IMG/VR virus record: IMGVR_UViG_3300039049_000083
Location: 1-22,437 of that record
DNA from: a virus
Length of the DNA stretch: 22,437 nt
Direction: 5' to 3' (one strand)
Both the position numbers and the translations under genes were made by a program. A model generated the notes under the pieces. That model searched no databases, was not told the DNA's origin, and saw nothing but the letters and a program-made list of their open reading frames with translations. This document shows, piece after piece, positions 1,060-20,493 of the stretch. Numbering within the stretch: the stretch's first letter is position 1; every line of letters starts with the position of its first letter.

Positions 1060-1308
1060 ATGCCTAGAAAAAAAGATGTAATGGGAATATACTTACCAAC
1101 GCGTAAAGAAAAAGAAGCTTACCATTGGTGTATAAACAATGGTATTTTTATTTCTCCTTTTGCAACTGGTGAAGGCACATGGTATATAGATATAAAATTA
1201 AATAATAATAATCATAGATCACCTGAAGCATATAGCCCAATAACTATATGGATAAAGATGTATGAATATTATAAATACTATTATAATAAATATGCGCACA
1301 AAATTTAA
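1060..1308 (+). CDS. Hypothetical 82-aa protein between primase-helicase and TS-like gene
   Basis: I do not recognise this protein. The ATG at 1060 follows directly after the TAA of the primase-helicase, and the end overlaps the next gene by 17-47 nt, so spacing supports it as a real cotranscribed gene. It has a basic N-terminus (MPRKKD), a Trp/Tyr-rich centre (YHWCINNG, GTWYIDIKL) and a Tyr/Lys-rich tail. No transmembrane segment, signal peptide or catalytic motif is visible. Small proteins of this size are common fillers in marine phage replication modules. The gene is probable; no function is offered. Confidence 0.7.
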   Translation: MPRKKDVMGIYLPTRKEKEAYHWCINNGIFISPFATGEGTWYIDIKLNNNNHRSPEAYSPITIWIKMYEYYKYYYNKYAHKI

Positions 1309-1933
1309 AAATGCAGATGAAGCTTACAACTATTTTCTTGATAAAATTATAGTTGATGGTGTAGCCTTTGGTGATACTAAAGCTTTATTTAATGTAGGTT
1401 TTACTTTAAAAAAACCTATGGAAAATTATATATTTAATAAAGAACGTAATTGGAAACCTGATTATGCTATTGCTGAGTGGAAATGGTATTTATCTGGTGA
1501 TCCTAATATTTACAAGCTTGGCGATATATACGGTAAAATACCGCCGATATGGGAGCGTATGGCTGATAGTTACAATAAAGTTAGGTCTAACTACGGTTGG
1601 CAGTGGCAACGTAACAACCAGCTAGATTACGTAGTCGCTAAACTTAAAAATGAAAAAGATACTAGACACGCAGCTATTAGTATTTATGACTGTAAAGAGC
1701 ATGCAACTTATGCTAAAGACACACCGTGTACATATGCTGTACAATTTACAATTGTAAATAATAAGCTAAATATGGCTGCTCTAATGCGTTCTAATGATCT
1801 CTGGTATGGTTTCTGTAATGATCAATACTGTTTTAGTATGTTACAAAAATTAGTTGCAGATAGGTTGAATATTGAAGTTGGTGAATATTATCATTATGCG
1901 CACAACTTACACTTATATAATAATAAATTATAA
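1292..1933 (+). CDS. Thymidylate synthase-fold enzyme, possibly dCMP hydroxymethylase
   Basis: From the ATG at 1292 the 213-aa product lines up with E. coli ThyA almost residue for residue in its second half. The catalytic Cys is C146 (TPCTYAVQF), the phosphate/nucleotide segment is RSNDLWYGF (R166-F174), and the tail HNLHLYNN places H207 and Y209 where ThyA has its sugar-binding His and Tyr. E62 in AEWKWYLSGD matches the catalytic Glu58 region. The odd point is D177: thymidylate synthases have Asn177 here to hold dUMP, while T4 dCMP hydroxymethylase has Asp (D179) to hold dCMP. The fold is certain; the substrate (dCMP rather than dUMP) and the product (5-hydroxymethyl- or 5-methyl-dCMP rather than dTMP) are inferred. 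An in-frame ATG at 1262 would add ten residues and a longer overlap, so 1292 is preferred. Confidence 0.88.
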   Translation: MRTKFKNADEAYNYFLDKIIVDGVAFGDTKALFNVGFTLKKPMENYIFNKERNWKPDYAIAEWKWYLSGDPNIYKLGDIYGKIPPIWERMADSYNKVRSNYGWQWQRNNQLDYVVAKLKNEKDTRHAAISIYDCKEHATYAKDTPCTYAVQFTIVNNKLNMAALMRSNDLWYGFCNDQYCFSMLQKLVADRLNIEVGEYYHYAHNLHLYNNKL

Positions 1934-1935
1934 AT

Positions 1936-2727
1936 ATGTATTTTATTTATCACATACCGGGTAAAAAAATTGGTGTTACAAGTAATCTTAATACGAGAGT
2001 TACGTTAACACAGGGTTATAGCCCAGACGAATATGAAGTTCTTGATCAGTCCGATGATATAGATTATATATCAGAGAAAGAGATAGAACTTCAAAAGTCT
2101 TATGGGTATAGAGTTGATCGTAAAAAATATAATGAATTAGTTAAATTAAATAAAATGAAAATAAACGTAACAGAACAAACTACTACGTTTCCTTATCCAG
2201 TTAAAAAATTGAAAGGTAATTTAATGGACAATATAGGTATGGAGTGGGAAACCGAACATGGCTTATTTGTTTTAAATTTAGATTCAATTAGATGGATAAT
2301 GCAAAACGTTAAAACTTCTATGTATAACGATAATAGATGTTATGTATATAACAAAGCGTTTGCTGAGTGGTTTAAAGCTCCTGAATTATGGGGTGATGAT
2401 GTACCTGAAGGTAAAAGTGAAGTAATTGAAATTGCATCTATATTTGATAAAATTAGAGCATGGGCAAAAGCAAGAGGCTTATATGATAAAGGCAATACAT
2501 ATGTGCAATATGTTAAACTTCAAGAAGAAGCGGGTGAATTAGCAAAAGCATTACTACAAAATGATCATGATGAAATAAATGATGCAATTGGTGATATGGT
2601 TGTAGTGCTTACAAACCTAGCGCATTTACATGGTACAGAAATAGAGTATTGTATTGAAGATGCTTATAATGTTATTAGTGAACGAACAGGTAAAATGATT
2701 AACGGAACATTTGTAAAAGATGAATAA
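1936..2727 (+). CDS. GIY-YIG-like N-terminus joined to a MazG-type NTP pyrophosphohydrolase
   Basis: The C-terminal part (about residues 165-263) is an all-alpha MazG-like domain. It has the acidic helix LQEEAGELAKAL (E197, E198, E201) followed by HDEINDAIGD (E213, D216, D220), matching the EExxE-ExxD metal-binding signature. Such enzymes hydrolyse NTPs or dNTPs to monophosphate and pyrophosphate. The first 60 residues (YFIYHIPGKKIGVTSNLNTR) resemble a shortened GIY-YIG nuclease fold, with KIGVTSNLNTR standing for the YIG strand and conserved Arg (R21). I cannot confirm a catalytic Glu, so nuclease activity is uncertain. The centre (85-160) is Trp-rich and unrecognised. The gene starts 3 nt after the TS-like stop and overlaps the next gene by 8 nt, consistent with shared work in dNTP handling. 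Confidence 0.85.
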   Translation: MYFIYHIPGKKIGVTSNLNTRVTLTQGYSPDEYEVLDQSDDIDYISEKEIELQKSYGYRVDRKKYNELVKLNKMKINVTEQTTTFPYPVKKLKGNLMDNIGMEWETEHGLFVLNLDSIRWIMQNVKTSMYNDNRCYVYNKAFAEWFKAPELWGDDVPEGKSEVIEIASIFDKIRAWAKARGLYDKGNTYVQYVKLQEEAGELAKALLQNDHDEINDAIGDMVVVLTNLAHLHGTEIEYCIEDAYNVISERTGKMINGTFVKDE

Positions 2728-3749: not shown

Positions 3750-3989
3750 ATGTTTAGCAATATACCCAAAGATAAATTGTTACACTTTTTTTATGGAACA
3801 TTAATTAGTTTTGGTTCTATAGGATTATTTGGTGTATATGGTTTGTGGATTACAGTAATTGTAGCTGCAGCCAAAGAAATAGTATACGACTGGTATTTAG
3901 GCAAAGGTACTCCAGACTTTAAAGACTTTGTGATTACATGCTTACCAGCATTAATGTTTTTAATAATAGAATATAATGAGTTTATTTAA
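3750..3989 (+). CDS. Small integral membrane protein, unknown function
   Basis: This 79-aa protein begins directly after the preceding TAA and overlaps nrdB by 14 nt. After a short N-terminus (FSNIPKDKLLHFFYG) it has hydrophobic segments at about 12-27, 29-42 (GLWITVIVAAAKEIV is partly amphipathic) and 60-74 (VITCLPALMFLIIEY), so two or three membrane passes are likely. The KDKLLHFFYG start and the KEIVYDW--GKGTPDFKDF centre recur in many phage-encoded membrane proteins of this size. A holin-like role is conceivable, but its place inside the nucleotide module rather than near the lysin argues against that. No function is assigned. Confidence 0.72.
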   Translation: MFSNIPKDKLLHFFYGTLISFGSIGLFGVYGLWITVIVAAAKEIVYDWYLGKGTPDFKDFVITCLPALMFLIIEYNEFI

Positions 3990-4944
3990 AGAAAGAATAC
4001 CCTACAAACCGTTTGAGTACCCAATATATTATACCGAAGGTTGGTTAAAGCAAGCGCAAGCGTTTTGGTTACATACAGAAATACCTATGTCAGGTGATGT
4101 TAAAGACTGGAACGAAAAGCTTACACTAGCTGAGAAAAACTTAGTTGGTAATATACTATTAGGTTTTGCTCAAACCGAATGTGCTGTATCTGACTACTGG
4201 ACACAAAAAGTCGTATCATGGTTTCCAAAACACGAAGTGCAACAGATGGCTATGATGTTCGGCTCACAAGAAACAATACACGCTGTTGCATATAGTTATT
4301 TAAATGAAACATTGGGACTTGAAGACTTTGAAGCGTTTCTTCACGAACCTGCGACGTCAGAACGTTTTGACAACTTGGTTGCTTATGACGGCAACGATCC
4401 TGTGGGCATCGGTCGTAGCTTGGCAATCTTTTCCGCTTTCGCAGAGGGTGTTAGTTTATACAGTGCTTTTGCTGTTTTATATTCTTTTCAATTACGTAAT
4501 TTACTCAAAGGAATAGGACAACAAATGAAGTGGTCTGTAAGAGACGAATCATTACATAGTAAAATGGGTTGTCAATTATTTAGACATATGTGTGAAGAAA
4601 TACCTACACTAAAAGAAGACTGTAAAGAAGATATATACAAAGCCGCTAAAATTATGGTTGAGCTTGAAGAAAAATATATAGATAAAATGTTTGAGATGGG
4701 TGATATTGAAAACCTTAAAGCATATGATCTAAAACAATTTATAAGAAAAAGAACAAATGAGAAACTTATGGAACTGGGTTATACAGACAAAAGACGCTTT
4801 TTTAGCTTTGACAGAGCTGGCGCTGATGTACTTGATTGGTTTTATCATCTTACTGGTGGTCACACTCATACGGACTTTTTTGCGATTAGGCCGACTGATT
4901 ATAGCAAAGCTAATGAAGGTGAAGACTTTGAAGATATTTGGTAA
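3976..4944 (+). CDS. nrdB: Class I ribonucleotide reductase small subunit (NrdB)
   Basis: The 322-aa product is a ferritin-fold R2 subunit, which makes the stable radical used by NrdA to reduce ribonucleotides. Ligands and radical site align by spacing with E. coli NrdB. E99 and H102 (SQETIHAVAY) match E115/H118, Y106 matches the radical Tyr122, E157 (FAEGVSLY) matches E204, and E191/H194 (RDESLHSKMG) match E238/H241. D190 matches D237. The first ligand is E68 (FAQTECAV), exactly 31 residues before E99 as D84 is before E115, so it is Glu instead of Asp. The C-terminus (GEDFEDIW, with Y309 upstream) resembles the tail that docks into NrdA. It is shorter than E. coli NrdB (375 aa), as usual for phages. 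The partner is at 5324, but that copy is broken. Confidence 0.95.
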   Translation: MSLFKERIPYKPFEYPIYYTEGWLKQAQAFWLHTEIPMSGDVKDWNEKLTLAEKNLVGNILLGFAQTECAVSDYWTQKVVSWFPKHEVQQMAMMFGSQETIHAVAYSYLNETLGLEDFEAFLHEPATSERFDNLVAYDGNDPVGIGRSLAIFSAFAEGVSLYSAFAVLYSFQLRNLLKGIGQQMKWSVRDESLHSKMGCQLFRHMCEEIPTLKEDCKEDIYKAAKIMVELEEKYIDKMFEMGDIENLKAYDLKQFIRKRTNEKLMELGYTDKRRFFSFDRAGADVLDWFYHLTGGHTHTDFFAIRPTDYSKANEGEDFEDIW

Positions 4945-5137: not shown

Positions 5138-5358
5138 AAGAAAGTAAATTAATAGATATGCAGCGTAAAGTAGAAATACTTGGATCTGCATTAAAAAAAG
5201 CTTTGGTAAAACTAGATGCATTAGAAACATTTACACAAGGCATGCTAACATCTTTTCAAATACATATTGGTAAAGATGAGTGGGATAAAATAGTTGAACA
5301 ATTAAAAGATATAAACAAAAGAGATGATGTGGAACAACCAGTGGAAGAAAGGAGTTGA
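5134..5358 (+). CDS. Hypothetical 74-aa helical protein between nrdB and nrdA
   Basis: The ATG at 5134 overlaps the previous TGA in an ATGA junction, so this start is preferred over 5074. The product (MKESKLIDMQRKVEILGSAL, then KKALVKLDALETFTQGML) has heptad-like hydrophobic spacing at about residues 5-40, suggesting a coiled coil, and a charged acidic tail (DINKRDDVEQPVEERS). It overlaps the start of the RNR large-subunit frame by 35 nt. No catalytic motif is visible and no family is recognised. Confidence 0.68.
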   Translation: MKESKLIDMQRKVEILGSALKKALVKLDALETFTQGMLTSFQIHIGKDEWDKIVEQLKDINKRDDVEQPVEERS

Positions 5359-8113
5359 TTATCCAGAGTGGGGTGACAACGAAGTATATAAAAAAACAAT
5401 AGCAGGAGGATATTTATACAATGGAGAAACACCAAGACAAGCGTACGAAAGAGTTGCTAGAACAATTGCGAAAAGATTACAGAAGACCGAAATGGCAGAA
5501 AGTTTTTTTGAATATATTTGGAAAGGCTGGTTGTGTTTGGCTTCACCAGTTCTATCTAATACTGGTACAGATCGGGGCTTACCTATTAGTTGCTTTGGCA
5601 TTGATGTCGCTGATTCTATTATTGACATAGGACAAAAAAATTTAGAGATGATGCTACTCGCTAAACACGGCGGTGGAGTAGGTATCGGTATAAATCAAAT
5701 AAGACCCGCCGGATCTAAAATTACTGGTAATGGAACAAGTGACGGAGTTGTACCTTTTTGTAAAATATATGATTCAACTATACTTGCAACGAATCAAGGA
5801 TCTGTCAGACGCGGAGCTGCATCTGTTAATATCAACATTGAACATGACGATTTTGAAGAATGGCTCGAGATTAGAGAACCAAAAGGAGACGTCAATAGAC
5901 AGTCACTTAACCTGCATCAATGCGCGGTCGTCGGTGATAAGTTCATGCGAAAGCTTACTGCAGGAGATATTAATGCTAGAAAAAAATGGAGCAAACTTTT
6001 ACAAAAGCGCAAAGCAACTGGCGAACCTTATATTTTATTTAAAGGAAATACAAACAAGCAAAACCCAGCAGCTTACAAAGATAACGCATTAAAAGTACAT
6101 ATGACTAACATCTGTAGTGAAATAGTTTTACATACAGATGAAAATCATAGTTTTGTTTGTTGTTTATCTAGCTTAAACCTAGCTAAATATGAAGAGTGGA
6201 AAAATACTAATATAATATATGACTCAATATGGTTTCTTGACGGTGTGCTTGAAGAGTTTATACAAAGAGCTAAATACAGAAAAGGTTTTGAAAACTCTGT
6301 GCGTTTTGCTGAAAAAAGCAGAGCATTAGGCTTAGGTGTACTCGGGTGGCACACATATTTACAAGAAAAAGGTTTACCATTTGAAGGTTTATTATCACAA
6401 TATGAAACAAGAAGAATATTCAGCCAAATCAAAATCGAAAGTGAACGTGCTAGTATGGCTCTTGCTGAGAAGTTTGGCGAGCCTTTGTGGTGTGTTGGTA
6501 CTGGTTTCCGTAATACTCACTTGCGTGCTATTGCTCCCACTGTTAGTAATAGCAAGCTTGCAGGAAATGTTTCACCAGGAATAGAACCTTGGGCTGCTAA
6601 TGTATTTACAGAGCAGTCAGCTAAAGGTACATTTATACGTAAAAATCCCACACTTGTAAAAGTGTTAAATAAACTTAAATTAAATACAAAAGAAATATGG
6701 GACAAAATATTAGCAGATGGTGGCTCAGTGCAAGATATAGAAGGTTTAGACTCAAAAGATCTAATTTATTTTAGAACTTTACATTCTCTTGCTTTCAGTT
6801 GGCTTGGACTAAGCACATCAGAAGTTATGTCGGGTCGTGACTACAACGAGTTAGGTAAACTTGTAGGTTTAGATTTTAGAACCACACAAACAGTGAGTAT
6901 GGAAGAAGGTCCACTCTTTAATGTTGGTGCTGGTGGCGATAAATATATGTCACTAATACAGTATGCTAGAGTGAAACAAGTTGATCTCATAGAAGAGTTT
7001 CATAGGGGTTGGGATCAAAGTTTAAACAAACAACAACTATTAGTATTAGATAAGGCTTTCAAAGATTATAAAAAAGCGAAGGGTAAACTCGATTTTATTG
7101 ATATGATAGAAAAGTTTATTTGGCAAGGAACGTCTCCCGACTTTGATTTACTTATTATAGATGAAGCACAAGACTTAGCTCCACTACAGTGGAAGATGGT
7201 TAAGGATGTTCTTGTTCCAAACTCAAACAAAGTTTACTACGCTGGAGATGATGACCAGGCGATATATTCTTGGATGGGTGTTGATGTAAATAATTTTCTT
7301 AATGCTAGTGAAACTAAATATGTATTAAGTAAATCATATCGTGTTCCAGAACATCCGTTTGCTTTTGCTGAAGGATTAACCGATCAAATCACGAAACGAG
7401 AAAATAAATCGTGGAACCCAACAAAAGAAAAGGGACTTGTTACATGGCATAATGACATTCTTGATGTTGATATGACAGAGGGCGAGTGGTTGATTCTTAC
7501 AAGAACTAACTACATAGCTAATAAAGTCTGTCAGAAATTAAGAGAAGAGGGTTATGTTTTTTGGAGAGAAGGAGAAGGTTGGTCTGTATCTGTCAATGTA
7601 CTAGTGGCAATAGAAGTTTGGTTAAAGTTACAAAGAGGAGCATCAGTGCCTGCCGACTTGTTAAAACCTTTTTCAAAACTGATTGATCCAAAACATATAA
7701 CAAGATCGGGTCGAAAGTTAATGTATTCTTTGGCAGATGTTAATAGTGAAAGACCACCAGATGAAGGTTACTCTTTAGGTAATCTAGAAAGATTATGTGA
7801 GTTTACGGCAAATAGATTTGTGACATGGCAAAATGTATTAAAAATATCAGAACAAGTTGCTGCATACATAGTATCTGTTAGAAAAAGAGGAGAGAAGATT
7901 CTATCGGCAGATCCCAGGATTCGTGTATCCACAATCCACAGAGCAAAAGGTGGAGAAGCTGATAATGTAGCATTGTTGCTAGACTCAACGAAGGCATGTG
8001 TGGAAAGTCCAGATCAAGATGCAGAGAGAAGAGTTTGGTATGTGGGTGTAACGAGAGCAAAGAAGGAGTTACACATAATAGAAAAATCTGGACAGTTTGG
8101 ATTTGAATTATGA
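5324..8113 (+). CDS. In-frame fusion of truncated RNR large subunit (NrdA) and truncated UvrD-like helicase
   Basis: Residues 1-475 are class I NrdA. They include C90 (LPISCFG, active-site Cys), N262-C264-E266 (TNICSEI, the N437/C439/E441 equivalents), a Cys at 279/280 (SFVCCLSSLNL, C462 equivalent) and SPGIEPW at 417-423. There is no ATP-cone domain; homology begins at DYPEWGDNEVY. NrdA homology ends at SVQDIEGL (468-475), so the Tyr730/731-type radical-transfer pair and the C-terminal Cys arm are missing. From about 480 a superfamily 1 helicase begins at IYFRTLHSLAFSWLG. It has motif II LLIIDEAQD (D613-E614), motif III AGDDDQAIYSW (D642-Q645), SKSYRVPEHP, motif V STIHRAKGGEADNV (T870-V882) and motif VI RRVWYVGVTRAKKE. 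Walker A is absent. Neither half can be fully active as drawn. This is a real deletion fusion or a misassembly. The start is ATG 5324 or 5327; the end shares ATGA with the next gene. Confidence 0.9.
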   Translation: MMWNNQWKKGVDYPEWGDNEVYKKTIAGGYLYNGETPRQAYERVARTIAKRLQKTEMAESFFEYIWKGWLCLASPVLSNTGTDRGLPISCFGIDVADSIIDIGQKNLEMMLLAKHGGGVGIGINQIRPAGSKITGNGTSDGVVPFCKIYDSTILATNQGSVRRGAASVNINIEHDDFEEWLEIREPKGDVNRQSLNLHQCAVVGDKFMRKLTAGDINARKKWSKLLQKRKATGEPYILFKGNTNKQNPAAYKDNALKVHMTNICSEIVLHTDENHSFVCCLSSLNLAKYEEWKNTNIIYDSIWFLDGVLEEFIQRAKYRKGFENSVRFAEKSRALGLGVLGWHTYLQEKGLPFEGLLSQYETRRIFSQIKIESERASMALAEKFGEPLWCVGTGFRNTHLRAIAPTVSNSKLAGNVSPGIEPWAANVFTEQSAKGTFIRKNPTLVKVLNKLKLNTKEIWDKILADGGSVQDIEGLDSKDLIYFRTLHSLAFSWLGLSTSEVMSGRDYNELGKLVGLDFRTTQTVSMEEGPLFNVGAGGDKYMSLIQYARVKQVDLIEEFHRGWDQSLNKQQLLVLDKAFKDYKKAKGKLDFIDMIEKFIWQGTSPDFDLLIIDEAQDLAPLQWKMVKDVLVPNSNKVYYAGDDDQAIYSWMGVDVNNFLNASETKYVLSKSYRVPEHPFAFAEGLTDQITKRENKSWNPTKEKGLVTWHNDILDVDMTEGEWLILTRTNYIANKVCQKLREEGYVFWREGEGWSVSVNVLVAIEVWLKLQRGASVPADLLKPFSKLIDPKHITRSGRKLMYSLADVNSERPPDEGYSLGNLERLCEFTANRFVTWQNVLKISEQVAAYIVSVRKRGEKILSADPRIRVSTIHRAKGGEADNVALLLDSTKACVESPDQDAERRVWYVGVTRAKKELHIIEKSGQFGFEL
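6746..6763 (+). other. Fusion or assembly junction between NrdA and helicase homology
   Basis: NrdA-like sequence ends at codon Leu475 (6746-6748, end of the GSVQDIEGL motif). Helicase-like sequence is recognisable from Leu480/Ile481 (6761 onward). The four codons between (DSKD) belong clearly to neither. I see no repeat, recombination site or obvious composition jump at this point, and the frame is kept across it. Confidence 0.7.
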
Positions 8114-8526
8114 AAAAAGAATGGTATTTACAAAGAGCAACTGACGAAGAAAACCCTAGTCCGTTTTGGGATAGTTACGTCCATGACATGTGCGAAGTCC
8201 TTGAAACCACAAACAAATCTCCTTTTGGTAAACCAATAAAAGAGTTTAAAGAAAATAAAAAAGACAGAAAATATTTTTTAGATCAAGCAGAGAAGCTAAT
8301 CAATGGTCCGAGAGCCAAAGAGTATGGGCCTGCTAAATTTAATCACGAAAGAATAGCAAGAATATGGTCTGTTATATTAGACAGAGAAGTTACGGCACAA
8401 GAAGTTGTGGCTTGTATGGTTGGTGTAAAACTAGCCAGACTAGCAGAAACGATAGAACACGATGACAGTTGGGTCGATATAATAGGCTATGCTGCATTAG
8501 GTGGAGAAATTATAAATGACAAGTGA
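8110..8526 (+). CDS. DUF6378 domain protein
   Basis: The start overlaps the stop of the helicase part in an ATGA junction. The second half of the 138-aa product matches the phage family DUF6378 as I remember it: INGPRAKEYGPAKFNHERIA (about 64-83), IWSVILDREVTAQEVVACM, then KLARLAETIEHDDSWVDIIG and YAALGGEI near the C-terminus. The first 55 residues are a charged extension (SPFGKPIKEFKENKKDRK). The family is widespread in phages and has no established function. The many conserved acidic and His residues (H79, H117, D118, D119, D123) could bind metal, which is an inference. It overlaps the polymerase gene by 11 nt, so it is made together with the helicase and the polymerase. Confidence 0.82.
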   Translation: MKKEWYLQRATDEENPSPFWDSYVHDMCEVLETTNKSPFGKPIKEFKENKKDRKYFLDQAEKLINGPRAKEYGPAKFNHERIARIWSVILDREVTAQEVVACMVGVKLARLAETIEHDDSWVDIIGYAALGGEIINDK

Positions 8527-10426
8527 CCAATACCATTTATTGGAACAAGACATAAAAGATGTGGCATGGGGGAATGTTGATTCAGACTGGACTCCACCCG
8601 AAGTTATACCAGATCTATCGCAGTACGATACGATAGCCATTGACTTAGAAACGAGAGATGAGAATCTAACAAAGCTAGGACCTGGATGGTGTAGAAAAGA
8701 CGGACACATCATAGGCATAGCCGTGGCGGCTGGAGATAGTTCTTGGTATTTTCCAGTGGCACATACTGTGGGTAATATGCCAAGACGACCAGTGTTTCAG
8801 TGGTTGACAGATCTGTGTAAAGACACAACTAAAACATTCGTGTTCCATAATGCACTATACGATCTTGGTTGGCTTAGAGCAGAAGGTGTAGAAGTCAAAG
8901 GCAAGATCAGAGATACCATGGTTGCAGCGCCTTTACTAAACGAGAATAGAAGATACTATAATCTAAACTCGTTAGCTGGAGATCATCTTGGCACATACAA
9001 AGACGAAAAGATGCTCAAGAGTGCCGCCGAAGAGTTTGGTGTAGATCCAAAGTCTGGTATGTGGAAACTACCGCCTCGATATGTTGGTGCTTATGCAGAA
9101 CATGACGCTGCAATAACTTTGAGATTATGGAACGAGTTACGAAAACAGATAACAAAAGAAGAATGTAGTGGTATATTTGAACTAGAAACTAGACTCACAC
9201 CTCTGCTTCTTGACATGAAAACAAAAGGTGTACGAGTGGATTTAAACAGAGCAGAGCAAGTTAAGAAAGAACTGACTGCGTTAGAGAAATCACTTGTAGA
9301 GGAGATAGTCAAAGAAACTGGAGTTACGATTGAACCTTGGGTCGCCACATCTGTAGCAAAGGTCTTTGATGCTATGGGACTTGCGTATTCTCGCACAGAA
9401 AAGTCCAGGGCCCCCGCGTTTACAAAACAATTTCTTGCTAATCACTCTCATCCCATTGCGAAGAAGATTATAAAAATAAGGGAAGTTAATAAAGCCAACA
9501 CGACTTTTATTGATACAATTCTTGAACACTCGCATGATGGTAGAATACATTGTGATTTTCATCCTTTACGTTCTGATGGCGGAGGCACTGTTACTGGTAG
9601 ATTTAGCTCAAGTAATCCTAACTTGCAACAAATACCTGCAAGAGATCCATACATAAAGAAACTTATTAGAGGATTGTTTATTCCAGAAGAAGGATCTAAG
9701 TGGGGATCTTTTGACTATGCTTCACAAGAGCCTAGATGGCTTGTGCATTATTGTGCAACATTAAAAGGACTTGATAGACACCCACAGATAGATGATGTTG
9801 TGGCTTTGTATAACAAAGGCGAAGCTGACTTTCATCAGATCGTGGCAGATATAGCAGGCATACCAAGAAAACAAGCAAAGACTGTGAATCTTGGATTAAT
9901 GTATGGCATGGGTAAAGGCAAGTTGGCAAACATTCTTGATCTGTCTGTTGATGAAGCAACAACTTTATTAGATAAATACAATGACAAAGTTCCATTCTTA
10001 AGATCTATTTCAGAGAAGACAACAAGGAAAGCTGCCGAGAGTGGGATTATCAGAACTTGGTTGGGCCGTAAATGTAGATTCAATATGTACGAGCCTAGAT
10101 CGTACAAGTATAATAAAGCATTACCGATGAAAGAAGCCATTGATGAATATGGTGGCAAGGGCAGTATCAGAAGAGCTTTTACATACAAGGCACTTAATAG
10201 ACTAATACAAGGGTCTAGTGCCGATCAAACTAAGAAAGCCATGGTCGATTGTTACGATGCTGGTCTTACACCAATGTTAACTGTGCATGATGAATTATGT
10301 TTTAACATACAAAACGACAAGCAAGTGGAGCAAATCAAAGAGATTATGTGTAATTGTGTGCCCGAACTCAAAATACCCTTTGATGTAGACGCTGAAATGG
10401 GGTCAAACTGGGGAGAAGTTGGATAG
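8516..10426 (+). CDS. Family A DNA polymerase with 3'-5' exonuclease domain
   Basis: The 636-aa product replicates the phage genome. Its N-terminal DEDDy exonuclease has D43 and E45 (IAIDLETRD), D116 (FHNALYDLGWL) and Y193/D197 (GAYAEHDAAIT), so proofreading looks intact. The polymerase part shows the TGRFSSSNPNLQQIP segment (360-374), motif A FDYASQEPRW (D400, E405, R407), motif B R451-KQAKTVNLGLMYG (K455, Y463) and motif C TVHDE (H591-E593). The residue matching E. coli Phe762 is L459. The length is typical of phage PolA, close to T7 gp5 (704 aa), with no 5'-3' nuclease domain. The start ATG 8516 overlaps DUF6378 by 11 nt. It is the last gene of the + strand module and is followed within 70 nt by a terminator. 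Confidence 0.96.
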   Translation: MTSDQYHLLEQDIKDVAWGNVDSDWTPPEVIPDLSQYDTIAIDLETRDENLTKLGPGWCRKDGHIIGIAVAAGDSSWYFPVAHTVGNMPRRPVFQWLTDLCKDTTKTFVFHNALYDLGWLRAEGVEVKGKIRDTMVAAPLLNENRRYYNLNSLAGDHLGTYKDEKMLKSAAEEFGVDPKSGMWKLPPRYVGAYAEHDAAITLRLWNELRKQITKEECSGIFELETRLTPLLLDMKTKGVRVDLNRAEQVKKELTALEKSLVEEIVKETGVTIEPWVATSVAKVFDAMGLAYSRTEKSRAPAFTKQFLANHSHPIAKKIIKIREVNKANTTFIDTILEHSHDGRIHCDFHPLRSDGGGTVTGRFSSSNPNLQQIPARDPYIKKLIRGLFIPEEGSKWGSFDYASQEPRWLVHYCATLKGLDRHPQIDDVVALYNKGEADFHQIVADIAGIPRKQAKTVNLGLMYGMGKGKLANILDLSVDEATTLLDKYNDKVPFLRSISEKTTRKAAESGIIRTWLGRKCRFNMYEPRSYKYNKALPMKEAIDEYGGKGSIRRAFTYKALNRLIQGSSADQTKKAMVDCYDAGLTPMLTVHDELCFNIQNDKQVEQIKEIMCNCVPELKIPFDVDAEMGSNWGEVG

Positions 10427-10495
10427 TGGACAATACAAAAACACTCAAAAACAAAAGTATTTCTAGGGTACAATCACACACGGACACTTTGTTTC

Positions 10496-10529
10496 GGCTC
10501 TGTGTGGCGATCTGAGAGCCTATTTTTTT
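10496..10529 (+). terminator. Rho-independent terminator ending the + strand module
   Basis: GGCTCT (10496-10501) and AGAGCC (10515-10520) form a perfect 6-bp stem around a 13-nt loop. It is followed by TA and a run of seven T (10523-10529). It lies 70 nt after the polymerase stop. There is no A-run on the left side, so it should not act well on the opposite strand. The rest of the gap, 10427-10495, shows no gene; it has a weak imperfect pairing of CACACA (about 10475) with TGTGTG (about 10501) that competes with the terminator stem. Confidence 0.8.
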
Positions 10530-10702
10530 CTGACAGGTTTACAATATGCAGTGATTTTGCCTATTTTACCATCTGGTAGTGGGACATCGGGCTGATTGTT
10601 CAAACGTCTGGCAAAATACAAACAACTGTTAATATTTTCAAATCTTTGTGTCTGATCTATCACTCTTTCGTTGAGCATGAAGATCAGAAGAAACTCTATC
10701 AT
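10520..10702 (-). CDS. Small 60-aa protein at the end of the - strand operon
   Basis: The ATG overlaps the stop of the upstream gene (ATGA, 10699-10702). The product begins with a hydrophobic stretch (MIEFLLIFMLNERVI), then QRFENINSCLYFARRLNNQP and ITAYCKPVRKK at the basic end. I know similar short proteins at the end of the virion module in marine phage contigs, always uncharacterised. Two Cys residues (in SCLYFA and YCKPV) may form a disulphide if the protein is exported, and the N-terminus could be a weak membrane anchor or signal. Its TAG (10520-10522) lies in the foot of the opposite-strand terminator. Confidence 0.7.
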   Translation of the reverse strand: MIEFLLIFMLNERVIDQTQRFENINSCLYFARRLNNQPDVPLPDGKIGKITAYCKPVRKK

Positions 10703-11340
10703 TCATCTTTTGCCTTCCAAAAATACTCGTCTGTGTCTCCGAGTCTGAACTTCTGTCCGTTCTCAACTTGATATATCTCTGTGCTAACTTTGAAGTCTGG
10801 TTGTAGTGGTTTGTCTGGTGTCAGTGAATTGTCGTACACTCTCATTCTGTTGTTTGGATACAGACAGAATTGATTATTTTCTAGTTCTAGTAAGTTAAAC
10901 GATTTGTGTTCTGCTGGTTTCTCACTGGTTGAGTAATCTATTGTGTCTATGCTTTCGTGATAGTTATCAAGAGTACAAACGTAAGATCCTTTCACGATAC
11001 CATGGTCTCTTGTATAAACCTCAAAGTCCATAGATCCTATAAACTGTTTGCTAACTGCCACCACCCCATAGTCCATGCAATTCCAAAACTGGAGATTATA
11101 AAGATCCATATCTGGAGTCGGGGTCTGTGGTTCAACAGTAAAAGCACTAATAGGAAGTTTATCATAAAGAGCACCGTAGTCAGGCAGATAAGTTTCAAAA
11201 TAGAAAGCTCTACCTGGAATAGACTTTGCTGTAACCCAGACACCTTTTACAAACTCTCCGTGTCCATCTTCGCCATCTCTTAAATATTCTTTACGAACCC
11301 ATACATCTATAGAAGGTAAATTAACAACTAGTGTAGCCAT
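10699..11340 (-). CDS. Conserved phage protein of unknown function, 213 aa
   Basis: The ATG follows directly after the TAA of the M15 peptidase gene. The product starts MATLVVNLPSIDVWVRKEYL and includes GHGEFVKGVWVTAKS, FYFETYLPDYGALYDKLPI, DLYNLQFWNCMDYGVVAVSK and DTDEYFWKAKDE at the end. It is rich in aromatic residues and beta-prone, with no membrane segment, and seems a compact single domain. I recognise the pattern as a recurrent, unusually well conserved protein in uncultured marine podovirus-like genomes; I know of no function. Its position between the lysin and the end of the operon suggests a late product, either structural or host-takeover related. The real function cannot be read from sequence. 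Confidence 0.82.
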   Translation of the reverse strand: MATLVVNLPSIDVWVRKEYLRDGEDGHGEFVKGVWVTAKSIPGRAFYFETYLPDYGALYDKLPISAFTVEPQTPTPDMDLYNLQFWNCMDYGVVAVSKQFIGSMDFEVYTRDHGIVKGSYVCTLDNYHESIDTIDYSTSEKPAEHKSFNLLELENNQFCLYPNNRMRVYDNSLTPDKPLQPDFKVSTEIYQVENGQKFRLGDTDEYFWKAKDE

Positions 11341-11805
11341 TTATGTGTAAATCAAACCTCTTCTGTATCCGTTGACTCTATCATATGTGAGAATCTCTTT
11401 TCTGTTTGCGTCACCAACGTATGATACATGCACCCAACCAGAGCTTGGACCCTTGGCTCTTTCATAACATTCTAATATCAACTGATCGAAATCTAATTCG
11501 TTTGCTATATATTGTGCCAGTTCTGCATTAGCAACGCCTGGTATTTCTATATCAGCGGCCTGACCTTTGCAATGTTGGCTGGTGGATTTTGATCCTATGG
11601 CTCGACACAACGCTGCGCTGCGATATCCAGAGTTAACTACAACTGGCTTGTCAAAATGTTTACGAATGGGTTCAAGAACCCTTTCACATAGTGCCATCAT
11701 AGCCACTACATGCTTGTCTCCAGGTGTGTTCTCTATGCCTTTTCTTTCTGCCGTTTGTGATTTCACAAACTCTGCTATAGTAAAATGTGGTGATAATCTA
11801 CTCAT
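11341..11805 (-). CDS. M15-family peptidase, probable endolysin
   Basis: The 154-aa product has the Peptidase_M15_3 layout. It opens SRLSPHFTIAEFVKSQTAER, then has VVVNSGYRSAALCRAIG (55-71), the zinc motif TSQHCKGQAADIE with H78 and D85, and SGWVHVSYVG with the third ligand H126. E112 in LILECYERA is a candidate catalytic or structural acid. The family cuts peptide links in peptidoglycan (D-Ala-D-Ala or L-Ala-D-Glu type), so in a phage it most likely releases progeny at lysis or softens the wall at entry. There is no signal peptide, so a holin would be needed; none is identified nearby. The start is supported by an AGGAG six bases upstream and an ATGA overlap with the preceding gene. Confidence 0.92.
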   Translation of the reverse strand: MSRLSPHFTIAEFVKSQTAERKGIENTPGDKHVVAMMALCERVLEPIRKHFDKPVVVNSGYRSAALCRAIGSKSTSQHCKGQAADIEIPGVANAELAQYIANELDFDQLILECYERAKGPSSGWVHVSYVGDANRKEILTYDRVNGYRRGLIYT

Positions 11806-14800
11806 CCAGTTCTCCTAGCTATATCTAAATTTTTAAGAATGTCATCTGGACTACTACCTAGAAAAGACGGATTTGTTCTAGTTAATGGACTTGTGCCCAC
11901 ATCCGTAGTTTGTATCGGAGCAAAAGATGGTGTAGTATCAACACTCGGTGGTGGTGTAGTATCAATCTTAGGAGGCAGTTGAGTTGTAACTGCTCTTTGA
12001 TTTCCTAATCCAAATAAGTTAGACATGCTTAACTGATCTGAATCTATCTCTTTTCTCAAGGACATTCCTCTTCTTAATGATCGTAATGCGTTTATGTCAC
12101 CAGTAGGAACATAAATGTTTTTCTTTCTTGCATCTTTTATTTTTTCTTTACTTGGTTTGAAAGGAACATATCTATCATTTAACAGAGAACTTGTCTCCTC
12201 CTCTCCTAATTGTGCATCCTTCATAATTTTTCTTACCTCTGGTCTTGTTAGACCAAGTGTTTTTAAATCATCTATTGTTGACGCATATTTTCTAAAAACT
12301 TTTAGTCTAGCATCATCTGCTCTTCTAAAAGCTGTAATGATTTGTTCTGGTGATGCTTCTTCGAGTCTTAAAACTTCGTTAAATAGTGCAGCAGTACCAG
12401 ATCTATCTTGTTTAAACTCTTGTGCTCTAAACTCTCCTAGTCTTTTTAAATCTAATGTTTGTGTATTCAAACCAGTAAAAGCTCTAAATAGTTCTGCTCC
12501 TTGTTGATAAGTCTTACCAGTTGTCGGCTCCATCTCACCCTCTGGAGAAAACACACCTCGTAAGAATCTAGATTTTTCTATGGATTTTACACCTTCTGGA
12601 AAGTTGCCACCAGCTATACCAAGCTCTGCTCCGACTGGTATTCTTACTGGAACCATGCCTGGTATCAAAGTATTAAACAGATGTAACATAGACTTTTCAA
12701 AAGCAACACCAGAAGAGTCTTGTTCTCTATAAACCTTTGCACCAGACCTAGTTCTACCACCACGACCACCACCTGCTACAGGTGCTACATCTTGTAAAGC
12801 AGAGAAAACCATAGAGTAATCTATAAATGGAGTAAAGTATTCAGACAAAGTTTCAAATCCTATTTTTCTGACTTGTTCTCCTAAAGGCACACTTTGTCTT
12901 TCCGTTTCTCTGTATGTGTTTAATATGGTTCTAAACCCTCTTGATAATAAATCGTATGGGTTAGTGTGACTGAAATCTATAAATTCAGGATTACCATTAT
13001 CGTCCTTGCCAACTGGTATTAACTGTGAGTTTCTCTGCCAACTAGCAGCTAATCTATTTATTGACTGTAGTTCTTCGTCACTAGTATCTGTTAAGTTTTG
13101 TGCAAACCTTTGTAAAGTATCACCCACAAGACCAAAGGCAGTCACACCACCCATCAATCTTTTCATTCCTATTTCTCTGATAGCTTGGACTGGACTCTCT
13201 AACTCTTTTGCAGCAGTGTCAAGAGTATTAAAACCAGTTCTTAATATTTCTGCGGGGAAGGCAATAAAGTTACCAAGAGGCACACCTCTTAACCCTTTTA
13301 TAACATCTGGAACAAGCTCGTAGTTTGGAACTGTGTTACGAACAGTATCTGCCGCAGCTCTTCTTAACGCTTCATCCAGTCCTTCGCCTTTTTGTTTTCC
13401 TATGTGTCTAGCAAATGCAGACAGTTGTTGTCTTCTTAGAGTAGGATTATCTGCAAAATCAGTCCCTATTTTTGCTATTGAATTTCTTAATTTTTGTAAT
13501 TCAAAAGCATAGTTGTATATCTTCCAAATATCATCACCACCCTTATAGAGACCTTCTGCCGTGTCTAAGAATCTCCTTGTCATATTCATACTGCCTTTTA
13601 GAGCAGTCTTTGACATACCTTGCAGTCCTTTACCATCTGGAGGAGTTTCTATTATGGATTGTTGTCTAGCTACAGAGTCTTCTACTGCTTGTGGTCTAAC
13701 ACCCAGAGCAATATCAAAATCAGAAACACCCACTTCATCTGCTACGCCAGTTCTTTGCGCTGGAAGACCCGTGATCCCTGTGCCTCTATACCCTAATCCT
13801 TGACGCAAGTTAGCTTGTATTTCTCGGAGTTGAGCCGAACTACCGATAACACCTCTGTTCTGTAGATCTACTAGAAAATCTAAAACCTCATCATTTAAGG
13901 AAAAGTCAAATCTATCGTTGGCAAATTTTGACACTTTACCAGTGCCTTTTAATTTAAGTTCTTTATCAATTAAATCTCTTAGAACTAAATCTACTGATTC
14001 AAAAAGACTAGCGTTCTTTCCCACATTACCTTGTGCAAGAGCAAACAAAGAAGCTGATGTTACGTTTCTTACTTGTGTGATTGGAGATAAAATTGTTTTT
14101 GCGTATTGAGAGATACCTTTTAACTTGACCATAGGATAGTAAAGTCCTCTTGCTATATCTCCCATGACACTTGTTCTTTCATTAATAACATTACTCATAG
14201 CTTCGTACATGGGTTTTGGTATGGCATATCCATACATCTCACCAAACACACTTCGTGCAGCAAGACCCTCTGGATCAAAACCAGACACGGAATCTCTGCC
14301 AAGAATGACATACTCCAGTCCTCTGCCACCTCTTCTTTGCACACTTTCCATGACATCTTTTAAAACAGCATCTCTTTCTGCTGATGGTAAGTCACGAAGA
14401 GATGTTATTTGTTCTTGTGGTGCTCTTGTTTGATTTATTTGTACAATTCTTTCTCTAACTAAATCGTTTGTGTTTATAAATAAAGGTTTATCTGCTCTAG
14501 GATCTGTGTTTCTAATTATATTGTCTGCGGTTCTTTTAAAAGAAGAATAGAAAGCATCTGCTGCTACAAAGTTAGAGAGCTCTCCCACGGTGTGCATGTA
14601 TGCTTCTTTTGGATTTCTAACTTCACCAAGTATGGATCTAATAATTTCATTATCAACTTTTGATTTATTTAGAACTGCTGGATTAAGTCTAACAGTCGGA
14701 ACAGTTCTAGCTGCTGTGCCGTATGCTCCACCAGAACTGTGTTTTAAACTTTTGTAATATTTTGTAACATTGTCTATGTACCGTTCTGCTTGTCGTCTTG

Positions 14801-16553
14801 TTAACGCAAACTGACCGACACCTTCTGGACCTTCTCTCTGTAACGATCTAAATGTGTCTACAAACTCATCAGAAATTCTAAAAGTTTCTGGTTCATCTTT
14901 TAAAAATTTTTGAACATGTTTTATGTCTACTGCTTTACCATCTACAATCTGATCTACAAGAGCCTCTCTCATGTCGGGTGCTAATTTAAAATTATCATCG
15001 TTAAATAATTGATATTGTCTGGAAAGATAACCACCATTTTCTATGTTATTTTTGACTTGTTCTACAAATTGTCTTCTAGACATCAGACCACTAGTTGACA
15101 CTTCTGGTAAACTTTTAGCAGCACCAGTGTCTATAACCCTCTCTGATAAATCGTCAATAATATTTTTTGCTTTTAGAAATTTGTCAAACAATGCTTTAGG
15201 TATTTCTAAATCTTTTTCTGTTGCTCCTTCTAAAACATCCATGAAGTTGTTTATAAGTTTTTGTTTTGTAAAATCTGGCAGTCTTCTGTATTCTGAAAAT
15301 TCTTTGTTACTTGGACTTAGAACCTCTGCGATTTGTCTATCAACTTCTTTTAATGCTTTCTCTGCTTTTTTGATATCACCTTCTATAGCTGGATTAACTA
15401 GAGACTTTACTCTTGCTACGTCACCTGGCAAGAACGATCTATATCTGAAGGCAGATAAAGTTCTAGCAACAGCTCTGTCTAATGTATTAATAAGGCCTGG
15501 ATCAGAGGACTCACCTTTTAAAAATCTTTCTTCTTGTTTTGCAATAGCTTCTGCTGCTTTTTTGGATCCAGCTCTCAACACTCTTGAACTTACTCCAGCA
15601 CCAGCACCGATACCTGCACCATACGCTGCACCAGTTGCCACCTTTCCAAAATCTATATCTTCTACATCTTTGCCTTGAGCCAGTTCATCAACTGTAGCCG
15701 CACCAGCACCAATCGCTGCGCCTGGCACTGCAAGACCAACTTCTCTTCCCGCTCTGGCTCCTATTTTTGCAGAAGTGCTAAGACCAGCACCAATCACTGG
15801 TGGTAAAGCACCAGCAAGAAGTGACCCAGAAAGACCATGAGCCATGACTTTATTGTATATTCTAGCTGCAGCTCTTTCTCTGCCTTCTAATCCTATAAGA
15901 TCTTCAGTTTGAAAAAAAGGACCGTAGCCACCTTCAAAAAAATCACCCAAAGATTGTGTGCCATCTGTGGCTACAACTGCATCTGCTGCACCTGCCGCCG
16001 CCATTTGTTGTGCCGCCAGTCCTAGTTTTTGACTTTTAGTTAAGTCTTTCATTTCAAGAGGTTGCTTTGTGATCTTCATGGTTTTCAAAGATCCAGCATC
16101 AGGTTTCATGCCTCGTGTGCCTCGTGCCAACTTACCAAGTTTACTAAACTTTGATACGGCAGCCGCGGCTCCAAGACCTGGAATACCAAACTGAATAAGA
16201 CCTTCTGTTATTTTACCAGCGGCTCCCGCTGGATCGATACCAAGATCGTCTCTCATTTTATTGAAACCTCTAACTACAGCATCTGTGTAATTAGTGCCTG
16301 CACCAAGATCTATAATACTTGTCACAGTTTCTGCTATACCTTGTGGTATGGCTATTAATCCAGATCCTACACCCTCTGCTATTTCTTGTAGAGTTCCCTC
16401 ATCTTCTGGATCTAGATAATTACTTGTTCCTTCTTGTGCAGTGGCTTGATCGCCTGAAGAACCAAAGCGAGTTTTGATAAAAGCCTCTGCTTCTTCTTGC
16501 GTAAGATCTTCTTTGATAAAATAAGTTTTACCATTTACTACATAACTAGGCAT
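11802..16553 (-). CDS. Giant internal virion / DNA-ejection-type protein, 1583 aa
   Basis: This is the largest gene here. The N-terminus (MPSYVVNGKTYFIKEDLTQE) is followed by an acidic linker. Two Gly/Ala-rich hydrophobic zones follow at about 105-140 (GLIQFGIPGLGAAAAV) and 240-325 (LSGSLLAGALPPVIGAGL and ATGAAYGAGIGAGAGVSS), typical of segments that enter membranes during DNA ejection. The long middle is helical and charged, without a lysozyme or transglycosylase motif that I can recognise. The C-terminus is Pro/Thr-rich and disordered (LPPKIDTTPPPSVDTTP) and ends with a short helix. Size, glycine zippers and position between virion genes and lysin match the large internal core proteins of podoviruses (T7 gp15/gp16 role); this is inference by position and style. 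It begins directly after the previous TAA. Confidence 0.85.
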   Translation of the reverse strand: MPSYVVNGKTYFIKEDLTQEEAEAFIKTRFGSSGDQATAQEGTSNYLDPEDEGTLQEIAEGVGSGLIAIPQGIAETVTSIIDLGAGTNYTDAVVRGFNKMRDDLGIDPAGAAGKITEGLIQFGIPGLGAAAAVSKFSKLGKLARGTRGMKPDAGSLKTMKITKQPLEMKDLTKSQKLGLAAQQMAAAGAADAVVATDGTQSLGDFFEGGYGPFFQTEDLIGLEGRERAAARIYNKVMAHGLSGSLLAGALPPVIGAGLSTSAKIGARAGREVGLAVPGAAIGAGAATVDELAQGKDVEDIDFGKVATGAAYGAGIGAGAGVSSRVLRAGSKKAAEAIAKQEERFLKGESSDPGLINTLDRAVARTLSAFRYRSFLPGDVARVKSLVNPAIEGDIKKAEKALKEVDRQIAEVLSPSNKEFSEYRRLPDFTKQKLINNFMDVLEGATEKDLEIPKALFDKFLKAKNIIDDLSERVIDTGAAKSLPEVSTSGLMSRRQFVEQVKNNIENGGYLSRQYQLFNDDNFKLAPDMREALVDQIVDGKAVDIKHVQKFLKDEPETFRISDEFVDTFRSLQREGPEGVGQFALTRRQAERYIDNVTKYYKSLKHSSGGAYGTAARTVPTVRLNPAVLNKSKVDNEIIRSILGEVRNPKEAYMHTVGELSNFVAADAFYSSFKRTADNIIRNTDPRADKPLFINTNDLVRERIVQINQTRAPQEQITSLRDLPSAERDAVLKDVMESVQRRGGRGLEYVILGRDSVSGFDPEGLAARSVFGEMYGYAIPKPMYEAMSNVINERTSVMGDIARGLYYPMVKLKGISQYAKTILSPITQVRNVTSASLFALAQGNVGKNASLFESVDLVLRDLIDKELKLKGTGKVSKFANDRFDFSLNDEVLDFLVDLQNRGVIGSSAQLREIQANLRQGLGYRGTGITGLPAQRTGVADEVGVSDFDIALGVRPQAVEDSVARQQSIIETPPDGKGLQGMSKTALKGSMNMTRRFLDTAEGLYKGGDDIWKIYNYAFELQKLRNSIAKIGTDFADNPTLRRQQLSAFARHIGKQKGEGLDEALRRAAADTVRNTVPNYELVPDVIKGLRGVPLGNFIAFPAEILRTGFNTLDTAAKELESPVQAIREIGMKRLMGGVTAFGLVGDTLQRFAQNLTDTSDEELQSINRLAASWQRNSQLIPVGKDDNGNPEFIDFSHTNPYDLLSRGFRTILNTYRETERQSVPLGEQVRKIGFETLSEYFTPFIDYSMVFSALQDVAPVAGGGRGGRTRSGAKVYREQDSSGVAFEKSMLHLFNTLIPGMVPVRIPVGAELGIAGGNFPEGVKSIEKSRFLRGVFSPEGEMEPTTGKTYQQGAELFRAFTGLNTQTLDLKRLGEFRAQEFKQDRSGTAALFNEVLRLEEASPEQIITAFRRADDARLKVFRKYASTIDDLKTLGLTRPEVRKIMKDAQLGEEETSSLLNDRYVPFKPSKEKIKDARKKNIYVPTGDINALRSLRRGMSLRKEIDSDQLSMSNLFGLGNQRAVTTQLPPKIDTTPPPSVDTTPSFAPIQTTDVGTSPLTRTNPSFLGSSPDDILKNLDIARRTG
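11812..11816 (-). promoter_or_regulatory. Ribosome binding site of the M15 peptidase gene
   Basis: Read on the - strand, AGGAG lies six bases before the ATG at 11803-11805. It sits within the last codons of the 1583-aa gene. It is one of the clearer Shine-Dalgarno matches in the window and confirms the peptidase start. Confidence 0.65.
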
Positions 16554-18338: not shown

Positions 18339-19285
18339 TATGCTGGAGTCCTTCGTCCAAAGAAATTAGGAAAACCACCTGCAGCGCCAACTGCTCCAAG
18401 ACCCGCGATCCCTAGTCCAAGAAGTTGTGAACCTGTGCTAGGTCGAGGCGTACTGGTCGTAGTCGCAGTCTGTTGCAGTGATGGTACACCTTTAAAAATA
18501 TCAGATAAGAAACCTATTTTTTGGAAAGGCAATGCTTGTTGAGCTAATAGATTTTGTTTATCAATATCAAGTTGTTTTTGCGTTTGACCTTGTTGCAGAC
18601 CACCTATTCCAAGTAATGTATTTATATCTTGCACACCCATTTGTTGTCCTAACTGACCAAGAGCCGCGGTTTGTGTACCAAGACCCGCGACAGTTTGACC
18701 CAACTGTCCAGTAAGTTGTGCTTGTTTTAATTGTTGTTGTGCTGCTTGTTGAGCTAAGTTTTGTGCTTGTTGAAAACCTTGTGATCTTAATTGTGCACCA
18801 GTTCTTGCTTGTTGATCCATGACATTTCTTGCAATTTCACCTTGTGCAATACCTTGTCTTGAACCACCAAATGCACCAGCGCCCACGGCACTTGCTGCTA
18901 ATTGATTCTGTTGCATAGCACCTTGTCTTGCTATGTCGGCTTGTGTTGCTGCAATGACATCTTCTGTATAAGGATCCATAAACTGTTGATAGTCAGTTGG
19001 AGAAAAACCAGCACCTGCAACGTAGTTTTGTGCAGTTCCTAACTGTCCAATGCCTTGTCCAATGGCTTGTGCTCCTTGTTGCAGAAAAGGTTGAAAAGAG
19101 CCAACACCTTGAAGTGCTGATGTTATTGCTTGTTGTTGTCCTTGAGAAAGATCTGCTAGTTTTGATGGAGCAAAAGGCATAGTGCCGTCATCTGCTAGAT
19201 TCTTTGCACTCTTAAAAATATTTGCTAAAAAGTCCTCTTGAAACTTTGGTAGTCTTGCTTCTTGTATAACTGTTTGTGTAGCCAT
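18338..19285 (-). CDS. Gln/Gly/Ala-rich internal virion-type protein, 315 aa
   Basis: The product is strongly biased toward Gln, Ala and Gly. The N-terminus MATQTVIQEARLPKFQEDFL is followed by DLSQGQQQAI, then a conserved-looking TDYQQFMDPYTEDVIAATQA (about 97-116). A helical Gln-rich stretch covers 120-240 (QAQNLAQQAAQQQLKQAQL). The C-terminus is Gly-rich and hydrophobic (GLGIAGLGAVGAAGGFPNFF). The MDPYT-VI-AT and GAFGGSRQGIAQGE patterns recur in virion proteins of marine phages that I would class as DNA-transfer or internal proteins. No enzyme motif is seen. A GAGAGGG-like Shine-Dalgarno stretch (19293-19299 on the - strand) stands 7 nt before the ATG, inside the end of the upstream gene. 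Confidence 0.8.
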   Translation of the reverse strand: MATQTVIQEARLPKFQEDFLANIFKSAKNLADDGTMPFAPSKLADLSQGQQQAITSALQGVGSFQPFLQQGAQAIGQGIGQLGTAQNYVAGAGFSPTDYQQFMDPYTEDVIAATQADIARQGAMQQNQLAASAVGAGAFGGSRQGIAQGEIARNVMDQQARTGAQLRSQGFQQAQNLAQQAAQQQLKQAQLTGQLGQTVAGLGTQTAALGQLGQQMGVQDINTLLGIGGLQQGQTQKQLDIDKQNLLAQQALPFQKIGFLSDIFKGVPSLQQTATTTSTPRPSTGSQLLGLGIAGLGAVGAAGGFPNFFGRRTPA

Positions 19286-20064: not shown

Positions 20065-20103
20065 GATTCAATACTCTATCAATAATTACACTTTTGTTCA
20101 ATG

Positions 20104-20493
20104 TTATATTCTAGTTATCGCACTCGTTGTTACTCTTGTTTTAGACAATTCTTGAATACTAGCTACAACATGCAATCTGTTTGCAGTTGCGGCCTGCACT
20201 TTTAATATCTCTCCACTCTGCAATATTAAATCTTTTGTAAGTAATTCTACAGTTGTGTTAGCTCCCACGGCTTTGACTTTGAATAAACTAAATGTGTCAC
20301 TGCCACTTACAAGTGTAACTGTTATCGTGTCTGCATTTCCACTGTCCTCTGATACTAGTATAGAGTTAACAACGGCTGCATTGAAATCGGCATCACTAGG
20401 AACTGTAAACAAAACTGTATCATTTGTTGTAGTTAAATCTACTTTTGCGTTTGTTATACCTTGAATATACTGAGGAATACTGGTTATAAGCAT
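20104..20493 (-). CDS. Small beta-rich virion-type protein, 129 aa
   Basis: The start shares a base with the stop of the nozzle-like gene (TAATG). The product is dominated by short alternating strands (VDLTTTNDTVLFTVPSDADF, ADTITVTLVSGSDTFSLF, LQSGEILKVQAATANRLHVV), with a Ser/Thr/Val-rich composition and few Lys or aromatic residues. This is typical of a jelly-roll or Ig-like decoration or tail accessory protein. It contains no Cys. The position directly after the nozzle gene supports a structural role; no family name can be given. Confidence 0.75.
   Translation of the reverse strand: MLITSIPQYIQGITNAKVDLTTTNDTVLFTVPSDADFNAAVVNSILVSEDSGNADTITVTLVSGSDTFSLFKVKAVGANTTVELLTKDLILQSGEILKVQAATANRLHVVASIQELSKTRVTTSAITRI

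Follow-up and report, generated by a model that had tools for sequence, protein, structure and literature searches.

The window, by which we mean the whole stretch of 22,437 nucleotides analysed here (IMG/VR record IMGVR_UViG_3300039049_000083), contains at 1292..1933 on the plus strand a gene for a putative dCMP hydroxymethylase with the thymidylate synthase (TS) fold. The reading frame is open throughout and gives a protein of 213 aa that matches the Pfam model PF00303 at 6.4e-25. The start codon is uncertain, with an in-frame ATG upstream at 1262 that would give 223 aa. A scan of IMG/VR gave at least 431 related stretches, and the best 80 of these (68–92% identity) were kept and aligned with the window protein and one Bacteroides phage protein to give the 82-protein alignment used below. 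Only 4 residues follow Y209 in the window protein; its marine relatives are 209–218 aa long from the aligned start, and the Bacteroides phage protein has 226. Since every relative has the same short end, a frameshift or truncation is ruled out as the origin of the short C-terminus and 213 aa is the natural length of the protein. The gene is under purifying selection (dN/dS of 0.06–0.13 against four relatives), which together with the Asp found at position 177 in 82/82 proteins means that this Asp is neither a random change nor a sequencing error.

Directly downstream on the same strand (1936..2727) lies a gene for a protein with a C-terminal all-alpha NTP pyrophosphohydrolase domain of the MazG/PRA-PH kind (PF01503 at 3.7e-5, PF03819 at 4.3e-5). 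In 78 of 79 loci a gene of this kind either overlaps the hydroxymethylase ORF or starts no more than about 10 bases past its end. The MazG fold is modelled for residues about 168–263 only, with a pLDDT of 65 for the protein overall, and the nearest fold matches of the domain (archaeal MazG, HisE, S-2L MazZ and DCTPP1) do not discriminate between these enzymes. The first 70 residues of the same protein look GIY-YIG-like by eye (YFIYHIPGKKIGVT...R...E); family searches gave no match and this part is modelled poorly. Both ribonucleotide reductase subunit genes follow the MazG gene in the same conserved block, which is complete in 65 loci. The small subunit, serving dNTP supply, is encoded at 3976..4944 on the plus strand (PF00268 at 2.2e-58; in 73 of 81 loci), and the N-terminal part of the large subunit, NrdA, at 5324..6752 on the plus strand, where it is cut at the junction described below. 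PADLOC found nothing convincing in the neighbouring genes.

A junction between two viruses

The window record is a chimera of two different viruses. Bases 1–6752 come from a flavobacteriophage-like podovirus and bases 6733–22437 from an HTVC023P-like virus, the junction being a 20-nt word at 6733..6752 (plus strand) that is common to both parents; the boundary is accurate to about one base. Relatives of the left side align up to 6751 and those of the right side from 6732 on, where L086/L087 are 99.5% identical to the window, and no compared locus matches both sides. The GC fraction is 0.331 to the left of the junction and 0.388 to the right. In the ORF that spans it (5324-8113; 929 aa) the N-terminal part of NrdA is joined in frame to a UvrD-like helicase. 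NrdA has lost its C-terminal portion there and the helicase its Walker A end; L087 has the helicase intact. We reject a natural NrdA/UvrD fusion for this ORF, since the parents each have a gene of their own and no compared locus crosses the junction.

The right-hand virus (6753..22437) has an HTVC023P-like polymerase, whose closest named counterparts are 023Pt_psg01 and that of pelagiphage HTVC023P, and no TS-fold gene. A PF00303 TS-fold gene was found in 0/14 records of the right-hand type and a family A polymerase in 0/30 of the left-hand type, which are the records that carry the hydroxymethylase. The DNA polymerase of the window belongs to this other virus, not to the hydroxymethylase phage. 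An assembly artefact is the likeliest cause of the joining, with a real recombinant as a possible alternative, and the record should not be used as one genome. Another joined assembly is perhaps represented by contig IMGVR_UViG_3300030380_004057 (76964 bases; L009, L015), in which two distinct copies of the hydroxymethylase lie, with 84% and 82% identity to that of the window.

Thirty relatives of the left-hand virus (G001–G030), whose records span 50–96 kb and are possibly incomplete so that absence there is not proof, contain no ThyX, no TS-fold protein of another kind, no dCMP deaminase, no T4-type (gp1) dNMP kinase (PF21448, for which the T4 control was positive) and no DNA polymerase of family A or B. 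Nor did the relatives yield any DNA glycosyltransferase that could be recognised. Those inspected do have genes for a primase-helicase, a ligase, ERF, an exonuclease and a sigma factor, and G020 has a GroEL-like gene (L171:3961-5520). At L172:3529-7428 and 12 other loci NrdA is directly followed by genes for a JmjC-like/cupin protein, a small cupin, a KdsB-like cytidylyltransferase and a member of the DAHP/KDO8P-synthase family; in L172 the block goes on to encode an uncharacterised protein and a glycosyltransferase of GT29-like type. The four genes named first occur in only 13 of the 80 loci, and the block is not needed for the hydroxymethylase. A glycosylated product made via this KdsA/KdsB/GT29-like block was considered and set aside on the same count, with no DNA glycosyltransferase identified.

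The host is probably a marine flavobacterium because of the terminase matches and a labelled bacterial contig. The G020 terminase is 62% identical to that of ctfjg026 and about 46% to those of Flavobacterium phages of the ‘elemo’ group; 87 records match it, the matches being otherwise to phages of Flavobacterium, Cellulophaga, Tenacibaculum and Maribacter. The hydroxymethylase gene also occurs on six bacterial-genome contigs, one of which is labelled Flavobacteriaceae. Megablast of the window gave no match among named phages.

Active-site residues, fold and phylogeny

The sequence-only reading of this DNA had placed C146, R166-S167, D169, H207 and Y209 at the numbers of E. coli ThyA, with Asp in place of Asn at position 177, and the alignment bears out both statements. 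The segment R166-S-N-D-L-W-Y-G-F-C-N-D177 is equal in length to R166-S-C-D-V-F-L-G-L-P-F-N177 of E. coli ThyA and aligns to it with no gap, and no alternative Asn takes the role of N177. The codon of Asp177 (T4 Asp179), which points to cytosine recognition, is GAT at 1820..1822 on the plus strand, and its neighbour N176 is kept in 80/82 proteins. C146, S167, D169, H207 and Y209 are invariant across the 82 proteins and R166 is present in 81/82.

Asp177 was known as a marker before this analysis. Asn177 and Asp177 have been tied to dUMP and dCMP use, respectively, and in MetaGPA 177 and 147 are the two highest-ranked positions for telling TS-fold proteins on experimentally modified phage contigs from those on unmodified ones (PMC8670742). 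E. coli ThyA, three phage TS and the SPO1-type dUMP hydroxymethylase have Asn at position 177, a residue that no member of the window clade has there, and at position 147 the window protein has Thr, as in T4, not His. As a sufficient sign of the product, however, for which the earlier reading had relied on it, D177 fails, since the RB69-type dCMP hydroxylase and a TS-like protein of a Microbacterium phage carry Asp as well. Annotating dCMP hydroxymethylases by Asp177 alone is unsafe, since it also occurs in relatives that are hydroxylases or probable methylases.

The further claim of that reading, that the product is a modified dCMP and not dTMP, has good support from residues that it had not named (D143, S99, Y101 and E62). 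In the motif D143-T-P-C146 (1718..1729, plus strand; T4 D145/C148), invariant in 82/82, an Asp predicted to activate water precedes the catalytic Cys by three residues, and S99-N-Y101 (1586..1594, plus strand; T4 S94/Y96) has S99 and Y101 invariant in 82/82. An Asp at this distance from the Cys (T4 D145), together with Ser94 and Tyr96, constitutes the published hydroxymethylation signature (Park et al., PMC6400193). Glu62 (1475..1477, plus strand; ThyA Glu58, T4 Glu60), the residue for folate ring opening, is gone in the flavin-type dCMP hydroxylase. The window protein retains it along with the other residues linked to folate chemistry, W87, D169, G173 and Y209, and E62, W87 and D169 correspond to T4 Glu60, Trp82 and Asp171. 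R125 and S167 are those of deoxy-preferring enzymes, as opposed to Lys133/Ala176 of MilA, which go with a ribose preference. At the TS positions W83 and L143 the window protein has Met (M90) and Asp (D143). It also lacks the C-terminal tail that seals the TS active site, as does the T4 dCMP hydroxymethylase (dCH).

A profile built from 30 family members and compared with the PDB matches the MilA CMP hydroxymethylase (2.3e-24; 89.4 bits) and T4 dCH (1e-21; 80.7 bits) ahead of any TS, and the dCMP hydroxylase 9iqc with 54.5 bits. The AlphaFold2 model of the window protein (mean pLDDT 90) has MilA as its top Foldseek match with a TMq of 0.88, followed by AfhB (9iqc/9iqu) at 0.83–0.85, TS at up to about 0.79 and T4 dCH at up to 0.77. 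It is clear from these values that the fold does not separate the chemistries, which are told apart by residues. The NCBIfam TS equivalog models all score far under their cut-offs (70.5 vs. 327 bits and similar). The fold, the residues with their conservation, and the pairing with the MazG gene are all direct observations.

In a phylogeny of the TS-fold families, which had been suggested as a check, the TS references form a clade that excludes the window family in all three trees, with support from 100/99 to 100/100. The window family and protein b of Bacteroides phage BF503P2 make up one group (99/99, 98/99 and 100/98), and the T4-type dCH is nearest or near to it in two of the three trees (93/81 and 85/70), the deep forks being weak. 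A sister relation of the window family to TS is not rejected (p 0.435). An AU test that had appeared to reject it (p 3.7e-6) was set aside, since its constraint split the DirtyBubble protein from the TS clade and the fair test gives the former value. We therefore place the window family outside TS and claim nothing more on its deep placement.

Predicted reaction and its alternatives

The window protein is very probably a dCMP hydroxymethylase, and its reaction is one that we infer from known families. C146 would attack C6 of dCMP, with the cytosine ring recognised and protonated by D177, and the methylene carbon would be taken from CH2-tetrahydrofolate (E62, W87, D169). No hydride transfer would follow; water activated by D143, S99 and Y101 would add to the exocyclic methylene to give 5-hydroxymethyl-dCMP. 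The downstream MazG/PRA-PH protein probably hydrolyses dCTP to dCMP, which would feed the enzyme and lower dCTP at the same time. This double role as supplier of dCMP and remover of dCTP seems plausible because PRA-PH genes co-occur with TS-fold genes on the modified contigs of MetaGPA (PMC8670742) and a MazG-like enzyme of phage S-2L provides the monophosphate for base replacement (PMC8342488). Use of 5hm-dCTP in replication would then bring hydroxymethylcytosine, perhaps further decorated, into the DNA, and such DNA would be protected from host nucleases.

Hydroxymethylcytosine or a derivative of it is thus a likely prediction for the DNA of the carrier virus. The earlier reading had extended modified cytosine to the phage DNA as read from the window, and this part does not stand as worded: since the record joins two unrelated viruses, the prediction is limited to the virus from which the left 6.7 kb come. 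The later steps (kinase, polymerase, glycosyltransferase) are unsupported because the relatives yielded no T4-type dNMP kinase, no polymerase of family A or B and no recognised DNA glycosyltransferase. A tentative and somewhat doubtful scheme is that this widespread clade of uncultured, flavobacteriophage-like marine podoviruses has hydroxymethylcytosine in place of cytosine and relies for this on a minimal set, namely the tail-less 213-aa hydroxymethylase and the MazG-domain protein, while the host phosphorylates and polymerises the modified nucleotide. Host enzymes are proposed for these two steps because no T4-type dNMP kinase or family A/B polymerase was recognised in the 30 records.

It seems unlikely that 5hm-dCMP serves pool depletion or a small molecule instead of being built into the phage DNA. 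The failure to identify a kinase, polymerase or DNA glycosyltransferase in the relatives would agree with such a use, but host kinases and a host polymerase could serve, and the pairing of the hydroxymethylase with a MazG/PRA-PH gene and with ribonucleotide reductase resembles base-replacement gene sets.

We consider it very unlikely that the enzyme is instead a dCMP methylase forming 5-methyl-dCMP, as phage XP12 reportedly possesses. According to literature cited in PMC8670742, an N-to-D change in TS yields 5-methyl-dCMP, and a natural TS-like D177 protein exists in Microbacterium phage DirtyBubble. The water-excluding features of TS are missing from the window protein, however, with Met at W83, Asp at L143 and no C-terminal tail, and no dihydrofolate reductase gene was recognised beside the hydroxymethylase gene in the window.

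Slightly more improbable still is a flavin-dependent dCMP 5-hydroxylase of the RB69/HY126 (AfhB) type, an enzyme with the TS fold and Asp177 whose product, 5-hydroxy-dCMP, is the precursor of arabinosyl-hydroxycytosine. The cytosine Asp at the aligned position, the high fold match to 9iqc/9iqu and the similarly short lengths are all in line with such an enzyme. Against this, RB69 ORF048c carries F, I, N, V and F at the positions of E62, W87, D169, G173 and Y209 of the window protein, and Glu in place of D143; the profile score for 9iqc is below those for T4 dCH and MilA; and forcing the window clade together with the RB69-type hydroxylase costs 8.9 log units, though the p of 0.069 is not decisive. 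Equally improbable is a dUMP-using enzyme, thymidylate synthase or hydroxymethylase, with an odd residue 177. The family name in annotation libraries and the lack of any other TS or ThyX in the relatives might speak for it, but the equivalog scores are far below cut-off, Asn177 is absent from the window clade, the window protein has T147 in place of H147, and it lies outside the TS clade (100/100).

If the window protein is a dCMP hydroxymethylase that supplies the viral DNA, cytosine hydroxymethylation would be common in an abundant group of marine viruses, and restriction, CRISPR and sequencing-based surveys of these viruses would be affected. Our literature search returned nothing direct on hydroxymethylated DNA in flavobacterial phages.

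Comparison with known systems

The hydroxymethylase forms a new branch of a known kind of enzyme. Hundreds of uncultured marine viruses carry it (at least 431 loci in IMG/VR are related to that of the window), and it has no close relative among the named phages searched (best match 42%). The related complete podovirus ctfjg026 has ThyX and does not have such a hydroxymethylase. SPO1 gp29, a dUMP hydroxymethylase, has Asn177 and Asn147 where the window protein has D177 and T147. The D177 TS-fold proteins of MetaGPA (PMC8670742) share with it the Asp and the co-occurrence with PRA-PH (PF01503), but are accompanied by dCMP deaminase and carbamoyltransferase, of which dCMP deaminase is not found in the 30 window relatives.

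The RB69/HY126 dCMP hydroxylase (AfhB, PDB 9iqc) is likewise short and has the TS fold, the cytosine Asp and the catalytic Cys, without the folate-chemistry residues that the window protein keeps. By PDB titles 9iqc is a flavin-dependent dCMP hydroxylase, and RB69 ORF048c matches it over its full length with 540 bits (phmmer); the Mosigvirus 5-hydroxy-dCMP synthase is described as a hydroxymethylase homologue with a distinct activity (PMC13390438). DirtyBubble gp58 (L181:595-1509) is TS-like, with Asp177, the TS-type W83 and a long tail and with no D143, and a dihydrofolate reductase gene lies two genes upstream of it. From its sequence it is a candidate dCMP methylase (5-methylcytosine).

The closest named-phage protein, at 42% identity, is the ‘deoxycytidylate 5-hydroxymethyltransferase’ of Bacteroides phage BF503P2 (226 aa, OP172671), which falls in the same clade and has the same key residues. 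It differs in coming from a gut phage whose genome also encodes another, divergent TS-fold protein and carries a dut gene. This second paralogue (L082:9121-9927) keeps D143 and an equivalent of D177, but the folate Glu and G173 are both replaced by Leu and W80 by Tyr, substitutions that suggest it probably has a different chemistry. MilA (PDB 5b6d, 5jnh), which hydroxymethylates cytosine nucleotides, is the best match by both profile and fold and shares D177, D143 and N168-D169. It differs in having Lys133/Ala176 for R125/S167 and a large C-terminal helical region, and it acts in antibiotic biosynthesis rather than on the route to phage DNA.

Phage T4 hydroxymethylates dCMP to disguise its DNA. 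Its enzyme gp42 (PDB 1b49, 6a9a) is only about 25% identical to the window protein in the Foldseek alignment and continues for 28 residues after the HxY motif where the window protein has 4. Counter-points to the likeness are the tetrahydrofolate-tail-binding R177 of T4, which is C175 in the window protein, and the second phosphate Arg (T4 R124, E. coli R127), which is H126. T4 also has the gp1 kinase, whereas neither a T4-type gp1 kinase nor a family A/B DNA polymerase was recognised in the window relatives. What the two enzymes have in common is the TS fold, the lack of a C-terminal TS tail and the residue pairs (T4/window) D179/D177, D145/D143, S94/S99, Y96/Y101, C148/C146 and E60/E62.
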